The translations under genes were made by a program, and so were the position numbers. A DNA stretch of 64,000 nucleotides. It comes from Armatimonadota bacterium (GTDB lineage: Bacteria > Armatimonadota > Fimbriimonadia > Fimbriimonadales > Fimbriimonadaceae). The notes beneath the pieces were generated by a model. The model saw only the letters and a program-made list of their open reading frames with translations. It was not told the DNA's origin and ran no database searches. The number at the start of each line of letters is the position of its first letter. Position 1 is the first letter of the stretch. The DNA is taken from NCBI GenBank assembly GCA_020161505.1, contig JAIUNY010000013.1, positions 1-64,000 on the forward strand, given 5' to 3'. Positions 51,177-62,233 of this stretch are shown in pieces.

Positions 51177-53357
51177 ATGCTCGCCTCCCTCGCGGCTTTT
51201 CTCCTCCACCACGCCGCCCGGCCCGATTCTGCCGCCCTGATTGCAGACCTCTCCAAGCACGCGACGGCCAAAGACATCACCGCCATCGAAGCGCGAGCCA
51301 CCCCGGAGCTGAAAGGGAAGTTTGCTTTCCTCAAAGTTCCAGGATCTTTTGGCGTCGGCCGATTCGGGTGGACGGCCGAGCTGCTCCAAGACTCCACGAC
51401 GGGCACGGAGTACGCCGTATTCACCACGCCTCTTACCACCCAAGACTACGGCGATCAAGTCTTTCGGATCGAAGACGGAAAGCTCGCGGCCAAGATTGAT
51501 GAACGCACCACCCGGGGCGTGACCCCCAAGCATGCCAACTTTATCATCGGGTTCGATCTCCCCAAGAAGTCGGCTTCCTTCCTCGCCCAACTGACCCTGA
51601 ATGTCAGCGTCGGCGCAGACAAAGACTTCTTCCTCCGACTCGGCCCGAATCACGACGTCATCCAGGCGCTTGATTCTGCCGGGAAGCCGATCAAGATCAG
51701 CCAAGCTGGCGGTGTGATCTCCCTGCCAACCCCTCCGCCAGGGGAGCACAAGATCACCCTCGTCTATGAGGGGGTCATCAATCGCCCACGATTTGCCGGG
51801 AGCATCACCGATACCGAGGTGATGCTGACCAACGATCTCTGGTGGCCCGCCATCGCCCGACTGCCGTTCACCTTCAAGACCACGGTTAGTGTTCCCAAGG
51901 ATTGGGAAGTGGTCGCCCAAGGCAACCGAGTCAGCGACACGATCATCGGCGACAAGCGGAGCATCGTCACCGAGATGCCCCTGCCGATCAGCTATCTCAG
52001 CCTCAGCGCAGGGCCGTTTTACAGCGAAGAGCTGCTCGTCGAAGGGCGCACCTACCGGATGATCTCCAAGACCATGCCCCGCGAGCAGATGAAAACCCAG
52101 CTCGAACTCATCCCTCCGGTCTTCGATTTCTTCGAGCAATTCGCGCCGTATCCGTTCAACCACTACGAGAAAATAGTGACCCCGCTCTACGGAGGCGGGG
52201 CCCTTGAAGCCTACAGTTTCGCCACTTATGGCCCCGGCTGGCTTCCCGCCGAGGAACCCCATGAGCCGAGCCACACTTGGTGGGGCGGCATTGTGCCGTG
52301 CACCTATTTGGATAGCTTTTGGAACGAGAGCTTTGCCGTTTTCAGCGAGGGCCTCTACGCCCGAGAAGGCCGCGTGGGTGACAAACCCACGAAGCGCCTG
52401 GCGTTCATCGGGGACTTCGGCGCGGAAGATTCTTATCTCACCGCACCCGTCGGTACGACCGGCGCGAACGACGGCAACGCCGCCAGCGCCGTTGGATACG
52501 GCAAGGGAGCCTGGGTGCTCCAGCAACTCGAATTCGAAGTCGGCACCGAGGTGATGATTCAGAAGATGAAGGAGTTTGTGGCCACGCATCCGGCCGGAAC
52601 CGCGAGTGATTGGCCGCAATTCCGCACCCTTTTCGGCCCCGAAATGGATTGGTTCTTCAAGCAATGGCTCGATGAACCGGGTGTTCCCGGGCTAGAAATC
52701 CTTGGGGTGGATCATCAGAATGAGGTGGCCGCGCTGAATCTGAAGTTCGAGGGCCAACCGGTTCGAATGACTGTAGAGGTACTCGTGGAAACGAGCAGTG
52801 AAACGAAACTCCATCGGGTTGACCTGCGACCGAATCCGGATGGATCGTGCGCGGTTGAAATCCCGGCGCCGGGGCAGATCAAGCGGATTGTCGTCGATCC
52901 CTACGACCGATTGATGACCGACGACAACACGTCGCTGCCATACCGATGGAGTGACAATCTTCGCCGAATGCGGGCCTTTGTCGATCCCAAGCACGACGAC
53001 TGGTGGCCCACCAATCGCCGCATCGACAAGCTCCCCGAAAGCTGGGAAGGCCTGGTGATCGTCGGCCATCCTGCTACCCTCCCCGAGGCCAGGATCCTCT
53101 GTGACATCGCAGGATTCGAGATCAGCGGCGACTTCCTGACCTACAAAGACGTGACGATTGATCTGCGCAAGGATCAAGCCGTGGCGATGGTCGAATTCGC
53201 ACCAGGGAAGTGGTGCGGGCTCAGTGTGGGCAAGGCCAAAATCCGGCCGAATGTGGGTCGGGCGACGGCGGCGGTGGTGGATCATCTCGGCCGATTCCTG
53301 ATGGGCGAAACGCGCCCAAGGGACCAAGGCCCGCTCGTCTGGACGCCGAAGGGCTAG
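51177..53357 (+). CDS. M1-family-like zinc metallopeptidase (secreted)
   Basis: The 726-residue protein has a short hydrophobic leader and an M1/gluzincin catalytic core: HEPSH (H362, E363, H366) followed by the third zinc ligand E384 in WNESFAVFSE, exactly 18 residues after the second His, and YGKGAWVLQQLEFEVG with the family's conserved Tyr region. The usual exopeptidase GxMEN is GGALEAYS, so substrate specificity may differ. Residues about 560-726 form an extra C-terminal region not found in standard aminopeptidases. It is convergent with the paralogue cluster. Confidence 0.82.
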   Translation: MLASLAAFLLHHAARPDSAALIADLSKHATAKDITAIEARATPELKGKFAFLKVPGSFGVGRFGWTAELLQDSTTGTEYAVFTTPLTTQDYGDQVFRIEDGKLAAKIDERTTRGVTPKHANFIIGFDLPKKSASFLAQLTLNVSVGADKDFFLRLGPNHDVIQALDSAGKPIKISQAGGVISLPTPPPGEHKITLVYEGVINRPRFAGSITDTEVMLTNDLWWPAIARLPFTFKTTVSVPKDWEVVAQGNRVSDTIIGDKRSIVTEMPLPISYLSLSAGPFYSEELLVEGRTYRMISKTMPREQMKTQLELIPPVFDFFEQFAPYPFNHYEKIVTPLYGGGALEAYSFATYGPGWLPAEEPHEPSHTWWGGIVPCTYLDSFWNESFAVFSEGLYAREGRVGDKPTKRLAFIGDFGAEDSYLTAPVGTTGANDGNAASAVGYGKGAWVLQQLEFEVGTEVMIQKMKEFVATHPAGTASDWPQFRTLFGPEMDWFFKQWLDEPGVPGLEILGVDHQNEVAALNLKFEGQPVRMTVEVLVETSSETKLHRVDLRPNPDGSCAVEIPAPGQIKRIVVDPYDRLMTDDNTSLPYRWSDNLRRMRAFVDPKHDDWWPTNRRIDKLPESWEGLVIVGHPATLPEARILCDIAGFEISGDFLTYKDVTIDLRKDQAVAMVEFAPGKWCGLSVGKAKIRPNVGRATAAVVDHLGRFLMGETRPRDQGPLVWTPKG

Positions 53358-53947
53358 GGAGCTTCGGGGCTGCGTTCGCTGCCTCGGCTTTCCAGGGTCG
53401 CGGGCAACCAGCGGAGCTTTGCTTCCATGATCGTGGCGGCGTCGGCGTGGTTGAGTTTCCGGCTCTTCATGGAGTGATCGGCGTGATGGGCCAGGAACGC
53501 TTCCCGGAATTCATCCCGGTTGTTTGCCAGGGCAAGTCGGAGGATCGTGATGTTCTTTGTGCGTTGATAAACGCCGAGCAGACCTTGCCAATGATGGGGT
53601 TCAAATTGGTGGGCGAGGATCTTGACAGAGCAACGTTCGAGGATGTGCCTATCCGCCAAGCCAGGCCACCCGTTAGGGAGCAAACCCTTTCCGCTCAATT
53701 CGAGCAGGAGGTGTAAGTTGTCAACCCTGACGGTCATCGCCACGAAAAGAAGCATTCCGACCGGAAGGGAAATGAGTCCGGCAAGGGGGTGAGCCACGTG
53801 CATCAGAGTGAATGGGATACTCACCGGAAGCAAAGCGGCATAGGTGAGCATCACGAAAAACCACCTCCGCTGCCAACGAAACTGCGCCACGATTCTGGCT
53901 TCTTCCTTCGTGAGTGAGGGTTGATCCGACCCCGGCTGATCCGTCAA
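53354..53947 (-). CDS. Paralogue cluster member a: one-module membrane protein
   Basis: The 197-residue protein has an N-terminal cytoplasmic segment, a membrane hairpin (about 30-75; FFVMLTYAALLPVSIPFTLMHV and LAGLISLPVGMLLFVAMTV) and a helical domain. It ends in the family motif SMKSRKLNHADAATIMEAKLRWL. It is the last gene of the cluster. Its start overlaps the stop of member b (ATGA), and its stop overlaps the convergent peptidase gene. The family is not one I recognise. Confidence 0.7.
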   Translation of the reverse strand: MTDQPGSDQPSLTKEEARIVAQFRWQRRWFFVMLTYAALLPVSIPFTLMHVAHPLAGLISLPVGMLLFVAMTVRVDNLHLLLELSGKGLLPNGWPGLADRHILERCSVKILAHQFEPHHWQGLLGVYQRTKNITILRLALANNRDEFREAFLAHHADHSMKSRKLNHADAATIMEAKLRWLPATLESRGSERSPEAP

Positions 53948-54555
53948 ACCTTCTCCTCCAACACTTGCTTCGCGCCCGGCTCATCCCCGAGCGACCGAAG
54001 GATCAGCCGGGCTTGGGCCAGGGCGGTCGCTTCCGCGTGGTCAATCTTCTTTGACGTCAACCCTTGCTTCTGATACAGCTCCTCGATCACAGGGAGGAAC
54101 TCGGTGCGCCCCATTTTTGTCGCCAGCCCCATGATTTTGAGCCGGAGAAGTCCGCGAGGCGTCTCTGGCAGCAGACGAGCGAGGAGTTCCCAATCGAAGG
54201 GTTCTTCGGATTTCGCCACACCTCGATCAGGGAGGGCAAACGCGAAGTCTTCGAGGGCGAGCTTCCGTGCTCCTGGATTCAAATCGGAAGAGCGAAGCAC
54301 GATTTGGATCAGTTCCCAATCCCGCTGACGCCCGAGAGACCAACTCCGAAGGAGGCCCGGTAGGAAAAGAAGAAAAATCGGCGACATTCTGTTCTTGTCG
54401 TCGAACAACAGCAGAGCGAATGCTGCCGCGACGCCAGAAAAGGCGACTACGTTCGCCGCCATTTGCACCCAAGCTCTGCGGCGATAGTACTTGGCAAGTG
54501 CGCGCACTTCGGCTTCTCGATCGGGCGGACGATAGGGCAGGGAGATCTCGCTCAC
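53944..54555 (-). CDS. Paralogue cluster member b: one-module membrane protein
   Basis: The 203-residue protein has a basic N-terminus, two membrane segments (about 31-50 and 58-72), and a helical domain with FDWELLARLLPETPRGLLRLKIMGLATKMGRTEFLPVIEELY followed by the motif SKKIDHAEATALAQARLILRSL. It is the clearest single module and a useful reference for the family. Both ends overlap neighbours by four bases, so translation is coupled through the array. Confidence 0.75.
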   Translation of the reverse strand: MSEISLPYRPPDREAEVRALAKYYRRRAWVQMAANVVAFSGVAAAFALLLFDDKNRMSPIFLLFLPGLLRSWSLGRQRDWELIQIVLRSSDLNPGARKLALEDFAFALPDRGVAKSEEPFDWELLARLLPETPRGLLRLKIMGLATKMGRTEFLPVIEELYQKQGLTSKKIDHAEATALAQARLILRSLGDEPGAKQVLEEKV

Positions 54556-55196
54556 CGCTCGACCCCCTGAGCGACCAATCGAGCACCCGGCTCCAGCGCC
54601 GCCAGAGGCCGGAGCACCAGTCGCGCGGTGGCGAGAGCCGCGGCTTCGTCATGAGCGAGCTTCCGATGGTTCAGCCCCACTGCCCCGTAGTGCTCGTCGA
54701 GGATCGCGAAGTACTCCACCCGACGAAATTGAACTGCGAGCTGCAGAATCTTGGTTCTCAGCCGAGCACGACGAGTCTCCCGCAGTGTTTGGCCAAGAAG
54801 GCCCCAGTCAAGCAGGTCATCGTTTTCGAACACATCTTTTTGGGAGTGGAGCCCAAGATCAAGCTGCGTGTAAAAGAACTCTCGCTTCCAGCGATAAGTG
54901 GCTCGACGGCCAAACTTCATCAATGCCTGAACGTGCCAGACGTCGTACGAGCGAAAGAGGATCGCGCATTGAAACCCGGCCGTCAAGAACGCGATGCCAA
55001 GGTGCCGCATTCCCGCGATCCATGATTCTGGAGCGAGAAGCCAGCCAAGGCCCAATGCCCCCAGCAAACCAGCCACGATAAACTGGCTCACCCGAGACTC
55101 ATATCGCCGTTGCAACGCTGCGACTTGCCGAGTCAACTCTCGCTCGCTGAGTGGGCGGAGTGGTTCGGTTGCCATCGGAGGATCCCCGTCGCTCAT
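54552..55196 (-). CDS. Paralogue cluster member c: one-module membrane protein
   Basis: From ATG 55196 the product has 214 residues: an acidic start, a helical segment (ELTRQVAALQRRYESRV), a membrane hairpin (FIVAGLLGALGLGWLL and LGIAFLTAGFQCAILF), and the helical domain with LLDWGLLGQTLRETRRARLRTKILQLAVQFRRVEYFAILDEHY and LNHRKLAHDEAAALATARLVLRPL. The start overlaps the stop of the small ORF by four bases (ATGA), which supports this choice over the GTG/ATG codons upstream. It aligns with member b along its length. Confidence 0.75.
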   Translation of the reverse strand: MSDGDPPMATEPLRPLSERELTRQVAALQRRYESRVSQFIVAGLLGALGLGWLLAPESWIAGMRHLGIAFLTAGFQCAILFRSYDVWHVQALMKFGRRATYRWKREFFYTQLDLGLHSQKDVFENDDLLDWGLLGQTLRETRRARLRTKILQLAVQFRRVEYFAILDEHYGAVGLNHRKLAHDEAAALATARLVLRPLAALEPGARLVAQGVER

Positions 55197-55405
55197 GGCG
55201 ATGCGTTCGTACGACCACGCCACTCGGAACCGTTGAGATAGAACAGACAGTGTCCAGGTGCTCTCCTGTCTTGCCGAGTGACCATGTCGAGCAGCGCGAA
55301 CAGGTCGTTCGGAACCTGAAACACGATAGTTTCCGAGGATCTAGAAATGTAAGCTATTGCCGAAGTACTGAACATGATTTTGAAGGTTGCGGAGAAGAAC
55401 GGCAT
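55193..55405 (-). CDS. Small ORF within the paralogue cluster
   Basis: The frame gives 70 residues from ATG 55405, five bases after the acetyltransferase stop, and its stop overlaps the start of member c (ATGA). The sequence includes FKIMFSTSAIAYISRSSETIVFQVPNDLFALLDMVTRQDRRAPGHCLFYLNGSEW, which looks like a compact folded domain. No family is recognised. The tight spacing on both sides argues that it is translated. Its composition is less GC-rich than its neighbours. Confidence 0.5.
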   Translation of the reverse strand: MPFFSATFKIMFSTSAIAYISRSSETIVFQVPNDLFALLDMVTRQDRRAPGHCLFYLNGSEWRGRTNASP

Positions 55406-55410
55406 GATTC

Positions 55411-55950
55411 TCAGAGCAGTTTCCTCATGAAAAAGCACCGCTCGGAAGAATCGTAACCGTTAATCTTGAGATAGTCTTCCGAGCTAACTTCTGAGATGAC
55501 CTCGAAACCTTTGTTGAGTAGCATTGCCGGACGTGTAAATGTCATTCCGTATACTGCGTGGCAATTGAAAGCCTTTGCTAGCTCGATCCGAGTTGAGTCG
55601 AGGGCGGCTCCCAGACCGGCGCCCCTATGGAGTGAATCAACAACTAAACGAAACAGTTCCGCGGACGGAAATTCTGCATCAGCTAGCTCTTTTAGAATGT
55701 AGCTTCCGTAGCAAAGATCATGGGGGCCTCCAATGTTAACTCGTGCCGCTGCAACAATCACTCCCAGGTGAAAAGCAGCAAAATGTGTGCCTGTCGCATC
55801 CCACTGATCCTGCAATCCGCCGTCGACCAGGAGATGACTCGACACTGGAACCCCCATTGCCGACCAAACTCTGGCACGCAACAAGGCTATTTCGTGCAGA
55901 TGCCGTGCGCCAACTTCTGAGATGGAGTAGCCAAGAGGCATCTGCTTCAT
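55411..55950 (-). CDS. GNAT-family N-acetyltransferase
   Basis: From ATG 55950 the product has 179 residues (ATG 55965 is an alternative). It has the GNAT acetyl-CoA loop LHRGAGLGAALDSTRIELAKAFN (R/Q-x-x-G-x-G/A), a preceding strand FPSAELFRLVV, and a C-terminal YGMTFTRPAMLLNKGFEVISEV typical of the fold. The lower GC content and unrelated product suggest that this gene and the small ORF after it were inserted into the paralogue cluster. The substrate is unknown. Confidence 0.8.
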   Translation of the reverse strand: MKQMPLGYSISEVGARHLHEIALLRARVWSAMGVPVSSHLLVDGGLQDQWDATGTHFAAFHLGVIVAAARVNIGGPHDLCYGSYILKELADAEFPSAELFRLVVDSLHRGAGLGAALDSTRIELAKAFNCHAVYGMTFTRPAMLLNKGFEVISEVSSEDYLKINGYDSSERCFFMRKLL

Positions 55951-56101
55951 TTTCCATTCGCCCATTCTTGTAGATGCACAACAAGCCAGATTCAAATGGG
56001 CGGTTTGTGTGTGAGTTTACCGAAGGTACGCCACCTCAACGAGCCGTCTTTATCGTGCGTGCGGACGTTCCCGCAGTGAAACTTCGCCGGCTTGATATTG
56101 A

Positions 56102-56863
56102 TCAAGGCCCTCGCTCCTCCTTCGGAGTCACGGTCACGGGCACTTCGCCCGCTTCAGCCTGAATCACCGCTCGCGAGCGTAGGGCATAGCGTGCCGCCGC
56201 CACCGCAGAGGCCTCGGCATGATCCAGTTTCCTGGACGTGACGTCGGTGAGGCTGTAGCGCGATTCCACCAGCTCGGTGAGTTCGGGAGCATCCGCCCGG
56301 CGCATCGCATCCAGAACTGCCACTCGGAGTGCCGCATTTCTGCTCCTCAACGCGATCTCTAACAGATCCCTCTAGGAGCCCCGCGAGAGGTCATTGCCTC
56401 GCTGAATGCCCGGCAGGAGGGAAGGCAGGATCTTCATCACATCCCGCCGCGCCCATCTTCGCCCAGGCGAATGCGCCAAAAAGTGCAGGGCCCCCGAGGC
56501 ATGCGCTGCCTCGGGTTCTTTGACTTGGTAGATCAGTCGAATACCGCCCTGCAGAAAGAGATACAGAACCCAGAGTGCGGAATAAGCATCAAGGACATTC
56601 CACTTGCCATCTGACAGAGCATAAATCAAGAGTGGCATGAGAGCCAAGCCAGCCAGCCGCGAAAGACGCCGCCCTGCCCGTTCGCACACTGCCTTGGCAA
56701 GAGCCTCCCGCGACACCAAGTCGCCGTCGCCGAAATGATGCGGTCCGACATACCCGAAGATCCCCCACTTGATCCAAAACGGCTCGGGGCCGGTGGCAAG
56801 CCATGCGCGGAATTCTTGTCGTCGCTTACTCGCCAGAGCGCACCTCTCCGGCCTCCCCGGCAC
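56102..56863 (-). pseudogene. Paralogue cluster member f, interrupted by an in-frame TAG
   Basis: One frame runs from about 56863 (GTG, start uncertain) to 56102 but is broken by TAG at 56372-56374. Before the stop are two membrane segments (LSRLAGLALMPLLIYAL and LDAYSALWVLYLFLQGGI) and RRDVMKILPSLLPGIQRGNDLSRGS. After it, RDLLEIALRSRNAALRVAVLDAMRRADAPELTELVE and the family motif SRKLDHAEASAVAAARYALRSR continue in the same frame. The homology continues across the stop, so this is a nonsense mutation or a readthrough site. The upstream part overlaps the end of member g. Confidence 0.65.
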
Positions 56864-57608
56864 GGCCCAGCTGCATTCTGATCCGGATCGCACTGAGCTC
56901 CTCAATCCGAAACGGAGCAACTTTTTCGGTGCTGGAAAGCCACCGTGCAAGTTCTTCCTGCACCAAAGGAAGCAAATTCGTCGGCGCTTCTTCCGAAAGG
57001 GCGGTCAGCAGGGCCACTCGATCATCCTTCGGTTTCTCTCGGAGGAGGAGCAAAAGTCGTTCCCAATCTGCCTGCGTCAGGCTGGAGAAGTCATTTATCG
57101 ACCGGATGGCATGGCTCAAGGCACGGCGCGATTTCCACCGCGAGAGTCTTGTCCGGCTGGCCTCTCTCCGAGCCAGTAGCGTCGGCAGCGCATCGGGCTC
57201 AATCTCATCCGGAAGGGCGATCGGTACCTCGAAATCGCGAGAGCCCGATACGAAGACGAGCACGAGTGGCAGGATGAACAGGCCGATCCAAGGTCGGAGA
57301 TCGGGCAAAGCGGCCGCGATACCGAGCCCTGCCAACGAACATCCTCCCGTCCCAATCTTCACCAATCGCTGCAGCTCAAACTCCGCCCAGCCAATGAAGT
57401 CCTCGGCTCGCCAGGGTGCGGGGATCTGCCTGGCAAAGCGCGGGAGATCTCCTGGATGCGCGCGCTGGATTGCTCGGAGAGCCTTCACCGTCCGAAAGAG
57501 CTCGCTTCTTTCCCTCTCGTCTCCAAGCCACACGGATGCCTCGACAATCTGATGCGAGCGCAGGAGACGATCCACCTTGTTCCGAAGTTGCGCAGAAGTG
57601 GACGCCAT
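56826..57608 (-). CDS. Paralogue cluster member g, second part (after an in-frame TGA)
   Basis: The 260-residue frame starts at ATG 57608 but is in phase with the upstream ORF 57627-57989, separated only by TGA and six codons. It contains the second half of a two-module protein: LPRFARQIPAPWRAEDFIGWAE, a membrane hairpin (about 90-125), LTQADWERLLLLLREKPKDDRVALLTALSEEAPTNLLPLVQEELARWL and the motif FRIEELSAIRIRMQLGRAG. No Shine-Dalgarno site precedes ATG 57608. The whole frame from 57989 would encode a product the size of member h. Confidence 0.6.
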   Translation of the reverse strand: MASTSAQLRNKVDRLLRSHQIVEASVWLGDERERSELFRTVKALRAIQRAHPGDLPRFARQIPAPWRAEDFIGWAEFELQRLVKIGTGGCSLAGLGIAAALPDLRPWIGLFILPLVLVFVSGSRDFEVPIALPDEIEPDALPTLLARREASRTRLSRWKSRRALSHAIRSINDFSSLTQADWERLLLLLREKPKDDRVALLTALSEEAPTNLLPLVQEELARWLSSTEKVAPFRIEELSAIRIRMQLGRAGEAGEVRSGE

Positions 57609-57626
57609 CGCACGCGTCAGAGTACG

Positions 57627-57989
57627 TCACTCGGCCTCCGAGAGGTCGCTCCTGCTATTGATCTTGGAGAGGCTCTGGCGCAGGATCAGCTCGCAGGCTG
57701 CGGCTTCCCACGAGGGGATCGGCCTTCCAAAATGCCGAATCAAGGCGCGCACTTGCTCCACATTGAGCCGGGAAACGAGCCAGCGGGTGATCACATGGGC
57801 TGCGACAAGAGCCAAGACTCCTGGAAAAGCGAGCCACAACAAAATCCACGGATTCGGGGTCGAAGCCGAGGTGTGGCGTTCACTGTTGACGATCAGCCAA
57901 GCGCCGATCGCCATGCACGGTGCAACACCAAACCAGAACGTCAGCCGGTGGATCCATTGAACCGTCCTGACCAAATTGCGCCCGCTCAC
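57627..57989 (-). CDS. Paralogue cluster member g, first part (ends at TGA)
   Basis: From GTG 57989 the frame encodes 120 residues: a membrane hairpin (FWFGVAPCMAIGAWLIV and WILLWLAFPGVLALVAAHVI) and NVEQVRALIRHFGRPIPSWEAAACELILRQSLSKINSRSDLSEAE. It stops at TGA exactly where member h has Trp in the matching LSEAEW. The start has GGAGG five bases upstream, encoded by the tail of h, and overlaps its TGA. This is probably the front half of a broken gene, unless the stop is read through. Confidence 0.6.
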   Translation of the reverse strand: MSGRNLVRTVQWIHRLTFWFGVAPCMAIGAWLIVNSERHTSASTPNPWILLWLAFPGVLALVAAHVITRWLVSRLNVEQVRALIRHFGRPIPSWEAAACELILRQSLSKINSRSDLSEAE

Positions 57990-59161
57990 GGCACCTCCTG
58001 TATGCCTGAGCGAAAGTGACTCAGATTTCCCCGGCCGATGATTCCCATCCGAATCCGAGTCAGCTCCTCGATCCAAGCAGGGGCATCGCGTCGACTTGAC
58101 TGGAGCCATCGTTGGGTGCTCATCCCCAAATCGGGCAGGAGTGATGCGGGCGCATGGGCCTGCAGGGTCTGAGAGATTGACTCGCGGTCGGCCTTGGCGG
58201 CGTGGTCAAGGAGCCCAAGCAGAATCAAGAAATCACCATGTCTCAGCTCTGAGAAATCGGTGGAGACCCGGATCGCCGATCCAAGCGCGCTGAGGAGGAT
58301 CCGTCGACGGGTGCGGTGGCGGGCTCCTTTCACCGCGACAAGGAGGTCGCGAAGCGTTCCGTGGGCGGGAGGGCACGTCGCCACGGCGGGCTGGATGGTG
58401 CGAAGCAAGCTGGGAAAGAGCAGAGTGCCTAAGAGTCCAATAGAGCCTACGCTCGTGGTTCCTGAACGAGTCACCAAGCTCACGGCGATGCACCCAACAG
58501 CGAACAAGGCAAATCCCCGCAGCGTGGCTTTCAAAGCGGGAACGTGCTGAGCCGCGGCGATGAAGTCGTCCGCGTTCCACGTATCGGGCACCGCTTCAGC
58601 GAAGCGGGGAAGGGTCGCCCTCTCATCGGCGGTGAGGTTGCTCAATGCTCGCAGCGGCTTGGAATTGTTGACGAACAAGGGTTGTTCACCCGGCTCCGAT
58701 CGATGCGCCCAGGTGTTGACTTCCCACACTTGCGCATGAACGAGGGCCTTTGTGGCCGAGTCGATGCCCCTCAACGACATGGAGCCGACGATCTTCCACT
58801 CCGCTTCCGAAAGCTGATCCCTCGTCATCAGGCGGGGCATGCTCAGGGGAAGCAGGTCGCTCAGATTGCCACCGAAGAGCAGCGACTTGTCTCGCCCGTA
58901 GATGCGCAGAAGTTGTCTGATTTCATCCACGCTGAGGCATGCTGCGAGGCGCCGGTTGTGCTGACGGCTCACCGATAGCATCAGAAGTCCGACGAGCGTT
59001 CCGGAAATCGCTGGTGCCGCCATCGGCGCTACGTCCAACAAAGTGTCCAATGATCCCAGCATGCTGTAAACCCCCAGAACGAGGCCCATCGTGACGAGCC
59101 AAACCATTCTGCGGGCATTGAAAAGCCACCGGCTCTTCCTGATCATCTCCTCGTGGTTCAC
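57986..59161 (-). CDS. Paralogue cluster member h: two-module membrane protein
   Basis: The 391-residue protein carries two copies of the family unit. Module 1: membrane hairpin at about 18-62, then SVDEIRQLLRIYGRDKSLLFGGNLSDLLPLSMPRLMTRDQLSEAEWKIV. Module 2: membrane hairpin at about 210-265, then LRDLLVAVKGARHRTRRRILLSALGSAIR, LRHGDFLILLGLLDHAAKADRESISQTLQAHAPASLLPDLGMSTQRWL and WIEELTRIRMGIIGRG. It ends in QEVP, whose codons include the ribosome site for member g. Start GTG 59161 overlaps the stop of member i. Confidence 0.75.
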   Translation of the reverse strand: MNHEEMIRKSRWLFNARRMVWLVTMGLVLGVYSMLGSLDTLLDVAPMAAPAISGTLVGLLMLSVSRQHNRRLAACLSVDEIRQLLRIYGRDKSLLFGGNLSDLLPLSMPRLMTRDQLSEAEWKIVGSMSLRGIDSATKALVHAQVWEVNTWAHRSEPGEQPLFVNNSKPLRALSNLTADERATLPRFAEAVPDTWNADDFIAAAQHVPALKATLRGFALFAVGCIAVSLVTRSGTTSVGSIGLLGTLLFPSLLRTIQPAVATCPPAHGTLRDLLVAVKGARHRTRRRILLSALGSAIRVSTDFSELRHGDFLILLGLLDHAAKADRESISQTLQAHAPASLLPDLGMSTQRWLQSSRRDAPAWIEELTRIRMGIIGRGNLSHFRSGIQEVP

Positions 59162-60204
59162 GGCACCTCCTGAATTGGTGCTGCGCTCGACGTTCGCAGT
59201 TCAGGCGGACGAGAGGCGAGCTCTAACCGCGCCGCTGTGATCGCGGAGACCGATGCGTGGGAGCCCTTTTCGCGCCGAGCGCTCCAATACGCCGCTTCCT
59301 CAGCGAGAAGGGGGAGGATCTCCGGCGGAGCCGACTCGCGGGCACCCTGGAAGATTCTCTGGCGGCCCGACGGAGAGGCAGTCCGGCTCGCACGCATCAG
59401 CACGCTCCACTCCTCAAAGGAGAGTCCGTCAAAACGTTCGGTGACTTTGAGAGCCACTTCGAGCGCATGGAATCGAAACGCCCATGAGAGAGAAAATGGG
59501 CGGCCCAGCACCCCTCTGGCCAGCTCAACCGCAACGAGTGGCGAACGAGCAATCACCTTTTTTGGCTTTTCCGCCGTCGTCACGAACCAGGCCGTAGCTG
59601 CGGCCAGGAGCGTTGCGAAGTACCAAACCCCGACCCCTTCTTGAATCCCCATCAGTCTTGTGAGCAGGATGGGGGTCGCACACGCCAAGACCACCGCGCA
59701 GAAGAGGACATCAGCACGACGCCGGCACCAGGCCGCGTCCACGATGAGTCGAGCTTGGTGGTCGAGGAACTCGCGGCCCTCGACTCCGCTGCGCAAAATC
59801 GCTTCGCGGGCCTCTTTCGCCAGGTTTCCTTGATTCCCCTGAACCAGGGCCGCGACAATCCCCCACTCCTCGTCGGTGAGTTCGTTGCGACGAGTGATGC
59901 GGGGCAAACCCCTGCGCAAAATGTCCCCCATCACAAGCTGGATCAACCGACTCTTTGAGGGATGAAAGGCTCGCAGAACTTCACCCAGTTCTGTCGCTGA
60001 AGTGCGCCCGAGCGTTCTGGTGAGCACCCTGTGCTGGTGGGAAGCAATCAACCCGGCCACGCCGTAACAGATGCCCACCCACAGCATCTCGGGGCTTGCA
60101 TTGTCTGAAGAGACCAGGCCGGCCAGCAAGACCGCCAGGCCGAGAAGGATGCACACTCGCCATGCGATCCCGAGTCGGATGACTTGCCGAAAAGGCGTCA
60201 GCAT
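59158..60204 (-). CDS. Paralogue cluster member i: two-module membrane protein
   Basis: The 348-residue product has hairpin 1 (IAWRVCILLGLAVLLAGLV and MLWVGICYGVAGLIAS), then SATELGEVLRAFHPSKSRLIQLVMGDILRRGLPRITRRNELTDEEWGIV, hairpin 2 (VLFCAVVLACATPILLTRLM and WYFATLLAAATAWFV), and LSFEEWSVLMRASRTASPSGRQRIFQGARESAPPEILPLLAEEAAYW with the final ITAARLELASRP. It ends in the same QEVP coupling sequence as h. GGAGGGACG precedes ATG 60204, which overlaps the end of member j. Confidence 0.75.
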   Translation of the reverse strand: MLTPFRQVIRLGIAWRVCILLGLAVLLAGLVSSDNASPEMLWVGICYGVAGLIASHQHRVLTRTLGRTSATELGEVLRAFHPSKSRLIQLVMGDILRRGLPRITRRNELTDEEWGIVAALVQGNQGNLAKEAREAILRSGVEGREFLDHQARLIVDAAWCRRRADVLFCAVVLACATPILLTRLMGIQEGVGVWYFATLLAAATAWFVTTAEKPKKVIARSPLVAVELARGVLGRPFSLSWAFRFHALEVALKVTERFDGLSFEEWSVLMRASRTASPSGRQRIFQGARESAPPEILPLLAEEAAYWSARREKGSHASVSAITAARLELASRPPELRTSSAAPIQEVP

Positions 60205-61499
60205 CGTCCCTCCGGGGCTGGGGCGGCTCCGACGATCATCCGACTCCTGAGCAGGAGCCGTGCTCGGGTGAATCGGGCGATGACTTTCGGGGCCGATTTG
60301 GCCTTACTGGCGATCCAGGCAGGGAGCCGCCGCTCGACTTCAGGGAGCAGAGAAACGGGGCCTTGACTTCCCAACGCCTCGGAAATCGGATCCGCGATGT
60401 TTGCCGGGAGATCTTCCATCCGATCCAGCAGAAACCGCCAATCATCCTCCGTGAAGGACGTGAAGTCGCAGGCCCCATCGGCCATTTCCGGCAGATAGCG
60501 CCAGAGGGGATGCCACCGCCCAGGCCGTCCCGCTGCATTGCAGGTACGGAGGGCTGCCAAGAAAATGGTCGCCGGAACATTGTCCGTCGGAAACAGGGTG
60601 CGATCGTGTTGGTATCCCCAGGCGAGCGTGCGATTCATGATCGTGGCAAACAGAATCACGATCACCGCGAGGACGATTTCGAAGGGCCATCCCGGCGAGA
60701 TCATGCCGAGCGCGAGGAGTGTGCCCGCCCACAAAGACATCGCCAACCGTGCCACATGCATGAGAACGCGGGTGCGGATGCCTTTCCAGAACCACGCCAG
60801 ATCGCGATCTGGCCATCCGAAAGTTTCCGGTGAGTGTGGTTCAGCTGCGTGGCCGGTCAGCGGCTTGACCGCCTCCATATTCGTCGCTACCCGCTCGAAG
60901 GCCTTTGTGAGTTTCGCTTCGTACTTCCAGCCTTGCTCCTGCATCGCCTCCGCAGTGCGGCGGATGTCCGGCAGCACCTCGACAACCTTGAGGCGGCCGA
61001 TTGCATTGATGGCGTGCAATGAGTACTTCTTTCGGGCTCCGGCAACCGCCACCACGGTTTGCCATTCGTGAAGATGCAACTCGTCCTTGGACCGGACGCC
61101 CTCGAGTGCCGCGACCATCAGCCTTGCCGCTCGGTCACGGACCAAATTGGTTTGACACCGATGCATCAGATTGAGCAGCCCCCGAACCAGCTCGGGAGAG
61201 CCGAGCTTCTCTGCTTGGTTCTCGGGTGGCTTCTCCCCGCGAAAAATATACGTCCAAGTGGGCACAAACAAGGCCACGATGAGCAGGATCATCAACACCC
61301 GGTTCGATCGAGCTCGACCAAACAGGGTAAGTAACGTGAACAAAACCAGGAACACCCCGCCGATGACAAGTGCATCGTGCAGGATACTGGCGCGCACTAG
61401 CCTTACCGCGCTCTCGTCATCGGAGGGCGCACGGTGCTGCTGATGGGGCACCACCGCTCTCTCAACCGCAGGCTCGAAGCCTGACTTCTCATCGCTCAT
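60198..61499 (-). CDS. Paralogue cluster member j: two-module membrane protein
   Basis: This is the largest member at 433 residues. Two membrane hairpins (about 40-85 and 245-292) alternate with helical domains. The C-terminal one reads FTEDDWRFLLDRMEDLPANIADPISEALGSQGPVSLLPEVERRLPAWIASK and then VIARFTRARLLLRSRM. The charged N-terminus (EKSGFEPAVERAVVPHQQHRAPSDDES) is unique. Its stop is embedded in the start region of member i (ATGCTGA). It lies 50 bases after member k. Confidence 0.75.
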   Translation of the reverse strand: MSDEKSGFEPAVERAVVPHQQHRAPSDDESAVRLVRASILHDALVIGGVFLVLFTLLTLFGRARSNRVLMILLIVALFVPTWTYIFRGEKPPENQAEKLGSPELVRGLLNLMHRCQTNLVRDRAARLMVAALEGVRSKDELHLHEWQTVVAVAGARKKYSLHAINAIGRLKVVEVLPDIRRTAEAMQEQGWKYEAKLTKAFERVATNMEAVKPLTGHAAEPHSPETFGWPDRDLAWFWKGIRTRVLMHVARLAMSLWAGTLLALGMISPGWPFEIVLAVIVILFATIMNRTLAWGYQHDRTLFPTDNVPATIFLAALRTCNAAGRPGRWHPLWRYLPEMADGACDFTSFTEDDWRFLLDRMEDLPANIADPISEALGSQGPVSLLPEVERRLPAWIASKAKSAPKVIARFTRARLLLRSRMIVGAAPAPEGRC

Positions 61500-61549
61500 C
61501 CCAAACCCACCGGAAAGAGGGTATCACATCGAGCCTCGGGTTGTGCCTG

Positions 61550-62233
61550 CTAGGAATCCACGGAAATCCGTTCCTCGGTCGCGGCTGAGGGCAGACTGGT
61601 CGTCTTGCTAGCAATAATCCCCCGCGCTGCTCGAATCTTGAGATCCGCGAGAACCATGCTCGTGAGGTCGTGTAAGCTCCTGGCATCGAGGGCCTTGGAG
61701 TTTGCCATTTGCTCCCGAAACGACTCCAGCGGCGCGACGCCCTCCGAACCTCCGACTCGGCGGATGACCTCCAGGACTTCGCGATTCAACTGGGGCGATC
61801 GAGTCGGGGAAACGAGCTTGTAAAGAAACCCGAGCTGATCGTCTGGTATGTCCGTGGCGGCGCGGACAGTGGGCAGGCTTGCCATCAACCCCGTTTCGCA
61901 GGCCTCGATGATCTCCTTGTCCATCGAGGTGCAGAGGGCCTCCGCGAAAAACCCAACAAATCTGGGGTCGGCCATTTCTCGCGCGGATTTGAGGGCATTT
62001 CGGTGTTGAGTGCTGAACGCAGTAGCCCCGAAGATCAGCGCGGCGAAGCTCACGACGGAGGGCCAGTCGTCAAGCGGCTGTTTCAGCACGAGCCATTTGA
62101 AGAAGACCATGAAGATCATGATCGTCACGCCGCCGCCCACGATTCCGGCAATCATTTGGCGGCTCCATCGCCGAGACCGGTTCTCCTTTACCAGGGTCGC
62201 GAGCAGTTGTGCGGGATCGGCGGATGTCTTCAC
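61550..62233 (-). CDS. Paralogue cluster member k: one-module membrane protein, first gene
   Basis: From GTG 62233 the product has 227 residues: a basic cytoplasmic start, a membrane hairpin (MIAGIVGGGVTIMIFMVFFKWLVL and VVSFAALIFGATAF), then FVGFFAEALCTSMDKEIIEACETGLMASLPTVRAATDIPDDQLGFLYKLVSPTRSPQLNREVLEVIRRVGGSEGVAPLESF. Its final motif (SLHDLTSMVLADLKIRAARGII) is the most divergent of the family. The frame extends to 62317 but without a better start. It heads the cluster, so the promoter should lie just upstream. Confidence 0.65.
   Translation of the reverse strand: MKTSADPAQLLATLVKENRSRRWSRQMIAGIVGGGVTIMIFMVFFKWLVLKQPLDDWPSVVSFAALIFGATAFSTQHRNALKSAREMADPRFVGFFAEALCTSMDKEIIEACETGLMASLPTVRAATDIPDDQLGFLYKLVSPTRSPQLNREVLEVIRRVGGSEGVAPLESFREQMANSKALDARSLHDLTSMVLADLKIRAARGIIASKTTSLPSAATEERISVDS

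Follow-up and report, generated by a model that had tools for sequence, protein, structure and literature searches.

A Tandem Array of Membrane-Hairpin Proteins With a Predicted HEAT-Type Solenoid in an Armatimonadota Genome

Introduction

HEAT and armadillo solenoids are protein-binding structures; bacterial examples of the HEAT type include CpcE/CpcF, NblB and the HEAT domain of QueG. The HEAT-repeat alpha-solenoids (PF13646 HEAT_2 and PF03130 HEAT_PBS) are stacks of antiparallel helix pairs. Alpha-solenoids are reported to be rare in bacteria and concentrated in Cyanobacteria and Planctomycetes (PMC3837014). Stacked helix pairs of this kind are also predicted in products of a gene array from an Armatimonadota genome, which lies within the window analyzed here (the whole stretch of 64,000 nucleotides). 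The array proteins differ from described HEAT solenoids in that they go undetected by HEAT models, are anchored by a membrane hairpin and contain no more than about three repeats. Unlike proteins of the CpcE/CpcF, NblB and QueG type, they have no lyase or reductase domain attached.

The closest relatives form a hairpin-HEAT family of Armatimonadota. The first gene of the array, gene A, shares with this family the same order of a hairpin, a DxR.VG.L.EAL motif, an LLP motif and three helix pairs. In contrast to the canonical family, genes B to I are strongly diverged and two-module fusion is common among them. Compared with family members from Chthonomonadales-type genomes, the window proteins are without a triple LLR(P/A) tail. 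A literature search found no joint mention of HEAT repeats and Chthonomonas, and HEAT repeats and Armatimonadota were mentioned together in one paper only, whose title concerns another superfamily, the lipocones.

Organization of the Array

Nine related genes, named A to I in transcription order, occupy minus-strand positions 62233 to 53354 together with one unrelated acetyltransferase gene. A sequence-only reading had placed nine minus-strand genes encoding hairpins and a helical domain here, and they were found as claimed. Its view that they are nine paralogous membrane proteins of one layout holds for the single family and for paralogy within gene groups; the one-hairpin layout does not hold, as four of the genes contain two modules. 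There are 13 module copies in total, one each in A, F, G, H, and I and two each in B, C, D, and E. Each module is made up of a basic N-terminus, two hydrophobic helices joined by a short loop, and a helical domain of about 110 residues with approximately three helical pairs.

Gene A (61550 to 62233) encodes a single-module hairpin-HEAT protein of 227 amino acids from a GTG start at 62233 and is the only canonical member of the array. After a gap of 50 bases follow the two-module genes B (60198 to 61499, 433 amino acids), C (59158 to 60204, 348 amino acids), D (57986 to 59161, 391 amino acids), and E (56826 to 57989, with an in-frame TGA inside). Gene C overlaps B by seven bases, D overlaps C by four (GTGA) and E overlaps D by four. 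Gene F (56102 to 56716) is a single-module gene with an in-frame TAG and an inferred start at GTG 56716. Beyond the acetyltransferase gene (55411 to 55995) are three further single-module genes: G (54552 to 55196), which starts at either ATG 55196 or the upstream GTG 55223, H (53944 to 54555, 203 amino acids), which overlaps G by four bases, and I (53354 to 53947, 197 amino acids, TTG start), which overlaps H by four bases and ends abutting a convergent M1 peptidase-like gene. Short overlaps of one to seven bases had been proposed for most adjacent pairs. Overlaps of four to seven bases are present at five of the nine junctions, and the other four are gaps: besides that between A and B, the spacings E-F, F-acetyltransferase and acetyltransferase-G measure about 107 to 220 bases, the starts of F and G being uncertain. 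The terminal motif of the array proteins, ..AR..L.(S/P)R, aligns with the last solenoid helix, where relatives have L.LR.R.A.

The acetyltransferase gene, also on the minus strand, belongs to the GNAT type (Pfam PF00583, 8.3e-6) and separates A-F from G-I. Its GC content is 0.505, and it is probably foreign to the array because its GC3 is 0.49, compared with 0.65 to 0.75 across the array genes. No convincing bounding repeats were found at the flanks of this insertion. An additional low-GC open frame lies beside it at 55193 to 55438.

The surroundings of the array are not conserved. In congeners the Vps10/sortilin-like gene does not lie next to the M1-peptidase-like gene, and what follows the sortilin-like gene varies from one congener to another. 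No client gene is conserved beside the array. In one congener (G005, L037:8130-11405) the stretch after the sortilin-like gene contains several additional genes, which are perhaps a filamentous prophage; one of them begins with a Zot-like P-loop. In two other congeners (G003 and G006) a lone canonical copy is flanked by a pyrophosphatase gene and mnmA; near mnmA in the window genome there is no such copy.

Interrupted Genes

Genes E and F each consist of two open frames, and reading the frame past the stop yields full modules. The TGA of E (57627 to 57629, minus strand) lies at a conserved Trp of the N-module, DLSEAE*RTL, and the TAG of F (56372 to 56374, minus strand) at a conserved Trp in DLSRGS*RDLL. 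Both stops fall in one alignment column, occupied by Trp in G, H, C1, D1, and others. Codon usage before and after each stop is gene-like, and the first part of F is coding in frame from 56716. Stop-codon reassignment was dropped as an explanation, since the two stops are different and both are ordinary terminators in neighboring genes. A canonical family gene in another genome (G064, L053:8894-9598) also has an in-frame TGA between hairpin and solenoid, about 20 residues earlier, and several further family matches with internal stops are found in other genomes.

Domain Identity

No HEAT model matched any window protein at E<=1 in a Pfam scan, and scans of the array proteins against Pfam, NCBIfam, and PADLOC gave sub-threshold matches only. 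Among the PADLOC-DB anti-phage defence models the best match had an E value of 0.024 and fell on the membrane stretch of B. Family members outside the window match Pfam HEAT_2 above its cut-off at 6.6e-17 and 5.3e-7 and just under it at 5.8e-6 (L064 and L071 are among those passing), and CpcE/NblB models match one non-window member at about 1e-7. An independent profile of 32 non-window homologues matches gene A with an E value of 1.2e-38 over model positions 32 to 242 of 274 (7.9e-26 with A5). With this profile only A is significant: the E values of C, F, H, and B lie between 0.02 and 1.2, and no match was reported for D, E, G, or I. In hhalign comparisons the N-modules (94%, E 1.8e-7) and the single modules (about 50%, E 1.3e-4) align with the family in matching order; the C-modules reach an E value of only 0.02.

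The AlphaFold2 model of H (mean pLDDT 80.3), built from an alignment of 20 sequences in which H was mixed with the canonical family, shows the hairpin helices followed by three helical pairs (helices at 80-88, 94-107, 122-131, 135-147, 153-162, and 173-191). D was modeled from a different alignment and is poor outside its C-module (mean pLDDT 57.9). Its C-module has helices over 270-377 in the same order as H, with block pLDDT of 62 to 89 over residues 271-380. The PDB entries retrieved by Foldseek/VIA-align for H and D are mostly importins, exportins, adaptins, armadillo proteins, alphaRep, QueG and TOG solenoids, with Z-scores of 8 to 9, which by the tools' own notes are not distinctive or decisive alone for a helical repeat. 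The membrane hairpin is supported by hydropathy. Lys and Arg have a density before the first membrane helix of 0.215 in the window and 0.325 in homologues; the corresponding loop values are 0.118 and 0.097. This charge bias fits an N-in/C-in arrangement with both ends in the cytoplasm.

Judged from the predicted models, the array domain is a diverged HEAT-type alpha-solenoid. It is filed as a HEAT-type fold only and not as a member of Pfam HEAT_2, because the window proteins are not above the curated HEAT cut-off. By profile similarity gene A reads as a clear member of the Armatimonadota hairpin-HEAT family. The initial impression that the proteins cannot be assigned to a known domain thus survives for the window members in Pfam, NCBIfam, and PADLOC, but the HEAT_2 matches of relatives, the profile match of gene A and the AlphaFold2 models identify the fold. 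Structural comparison places that fold in the HEAT/ARM class, and the family itself is apparently absent from the libraries searched. Strong structural matches to an unrelated known family, which would have counted against the sequence-only reading, were thus obtained only in part: the fold is known and the family seems undescribed.

Relationships Among the Modules

Paralogy within gene groups is evident from pairwise BLAST of the modules. In this tiny database the E values are 2e-21 for D2-E2, 1e-18 for G-H, 3e-10 for B2-E2, 3e-9 for C2-E2, 2e-8 for C1-D1, 3e-8 for F-H, 9e-6 for D1-E1 and 3e-5 for H-I. The three module groups (the N-modules of B-E, the C-modules of B-E and the single modules F-I) match one another by profile at E values of 2e-5 to 3e-3; the values for column-shuffled controls, compared with the wider family, were 0.3 to 0.9. 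In a phylogenetic tree a single clade with support of 98/91 unites B2-E2 with F, G, H, and I. A groups with the canonical family, and B1 is placed outside that B2-I clade on the longest branch of all. Terminal branches reach 3.5 changes per column. The branches of the clade are very long, the tool warns of long-branch joins, and the joins inside the clade are uncertain. We infer that all nine genes descend from the canonical hairpin-HEAT family. Common ancestry of B-I with that family is likely but is not fully proved by sequence.

Distribution in Armatimonadota

The first relative was a single gene in the congener G003, identified by profile search, and it led to the wider family. Across the phylum, 47 of 291 genomes encode members of the hairpin-HEAT family. 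Its presence is patchy, and congeners mostly have no canonical copy or just one. A profile of B-E retrieved nothing convincing from 112 other genomes of the order, and B-I form a supported, very long-branched clade restricted to this genome among the genomes of the order searched. A pattern scan of genome contigs with gene D found no relative. The corresponding A6 scan found ten, all from Armatimonadetes or Chthonomonadales/Chthonomonas except one labeled only as a bacterium; being a single short pattern, it has low sensitivity outside the phylum. The tandem arrangement recurs in related Armatimonadota genomes. Two to three head-to-tail copies and fused two-module forms are common in relatives elsewhere, so that the family tends towards tandem or fused layouts, of which this run of nine is the most extreme case encountered.

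The family is very numerous in Chthonomonadales-type genomes (families f12 and f13), with up to 30 or more such genes in a single genome. Each of three genomes has 34 to 40 matching stretches, and in one of these (G148) nearly all fetched stretches show one or more distinct family genes. In Chthonomonadales-type genomes a molybdopterin-type oxidoreductase gene is adjacent or close to four loci, and a short-chain dehydrogenase gene to four; hence no single partner is indicated. The family genes close to the oxidoreductase gene are at L094, L097, L102, and L114, in four genomes, and they overlap it in L094 and L097.

Most of the f12/f13 hairpin-HEAT proteins examined have three LLR(P/A) boxes in a tail at the C-terminus. 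Dozens of proteins carry this tail (L134-L153 and L154-L173; genomes G148, G153, G160, G163, and G139). At E<=1e-6, 27 of the 291 genomes have it; f12/f13 account for 25 of these, and the remaining two belong to the same order as the window genome. It has no match anywhere in the window genome, and it marks a subgroup and not the whole family, because canonical members of the window's own family are also without it. The tail looks portable, since it occurs on hairpin-HEAT proteins, on soluble HEAT proteins and on one Spo0M protein (Pfam 8.9e-17), and it is possibly a docking tag.

Function and Alternatives

The array probably arose by lineage-specific tandem expansion within an Armatimonadota family of HEAT-type alpha-solenoids anchored by membrane hairpins, and its products would serve as membrane-tethered adaptors or scaffolds. 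The basic N-terminus of each module would sit in the cytoplasm, the hairpin would span the inner membrane in two passes, and the cytoplasmic face would display about three HEAT-like helix pairs per module. By analogy, binding of a protein client would be expected because HEAT/ARM solenoids generally bind proteins, and each gene product may then act as an adaptor or scaffold held at the membrane. Tandem duplication and rapid divergence would diversify the binding surface. The expansion has most likely proceeded under weak or changing selection. The array looks fast-evolving and partly decaying; a strict nine-subunit machine is unlikely given the nonsense codons, the insertion and the patchiness.

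It is possible, though doubtful, that the expansion is largely dispensable, with relaxed selection, ongoing loss of the duplicated copies and no present collective role. Such decay assumes the same hairpin-HEAT identity and differs only on present function. It would explain the two nonsense-interrupted members here and the one in G064, the further matches with internal stops in other genomes, the patchy presence in congeners and the extreme terminal branches. Yet seven of the nine are intact: their open frames are long, their codon usage is gene-like, and the four-base overlaps are retained.

An unlikely alternative is a functional multi-subunit membrane complex whose nine products are co-translated and assemble stoichiometrically. 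The overlaps at five of nine junctions, the head-to-tail copies in relatives and the gene-like codon usage that persists on both sides of both stops are what such a complex would predict, whereas the nonsense codons in E and F, the foreign-looking acetyltransferase gene and the congeners with none or one canonical copy speak against it. Stoichiometric co-translation, which the sequence-only reading had considered likely, is therefore not sustained: two of nine genes have nonsense codons, an insertion splits the array and the junctions are not all coupled.

The stops in E and F could themselves be functional, reinitiation or readthrough dividing a module so that the hairpin and the solenoid are separate polypeptides, which we consider improbable. 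The same conserved Trp column is hit in both genes, although this codon offers just 2 of the 122 possible single-base nonsense changes in E and 2 of the 67 in F under random change once per gene, and a start codon follows each stop within about 20 bases (ATG 57608 in E and TTG 56350 in F). However, the shared column was noticed post hoc, the two stops differ, no strong ribosome-binding site is seen ahead of the downstream starts, and sequencing or assembly error may account for the interruptions. Finally, it is very improbable that the proteins belong to unrelated two-helix membrane families of the SLATT, TrbC/VirB2 or MotA N-terminal type: SLATT proteins do share two membrane helices and a cytoplasmic helical part, and there are weak matches to SLATT_1 (0.062 for A, 0.0043 for L068), TrbC (0.034) and MotA_N (0.22), but all are far under curated cut-offs (SLATT scores of 13 to 17 against 41 in NCBIfam, A at 13.3 bits, and PADLOC negative) and lie mainly on the hydrophobic stretch, and the HEAT relatives account for the soluble part.

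Outlook

For the phylum as a whole, we tentatively raise the idea that Armatimonadota hold an undescribed membrane-bound HEAT-scaffold system, in which the LLR(P/A) tail, borne in Chthonomonadales-type genomes by dozens of paralogues per genome, by soluble HEAT proteins and by at least one arrestin-like Spo0M protein, might bring all of these to a single shared partner. In that case the window array might be a tail-less branch diversified by tandem and two-module duplication. With the expansion of a hairpin-HEAT family as the preferred reading, a formerly unassigned array becomes a testable family of putative membrane-anchored HEAT scaffolds, patchy in the window's family and much expanded in Chthonomonadales-type genomes. 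Another large bacterial alpha-solenoid expansion, membrane-bound and partly marked by a tail, would be useful for asking what roles such scaffolds have in bacteria.
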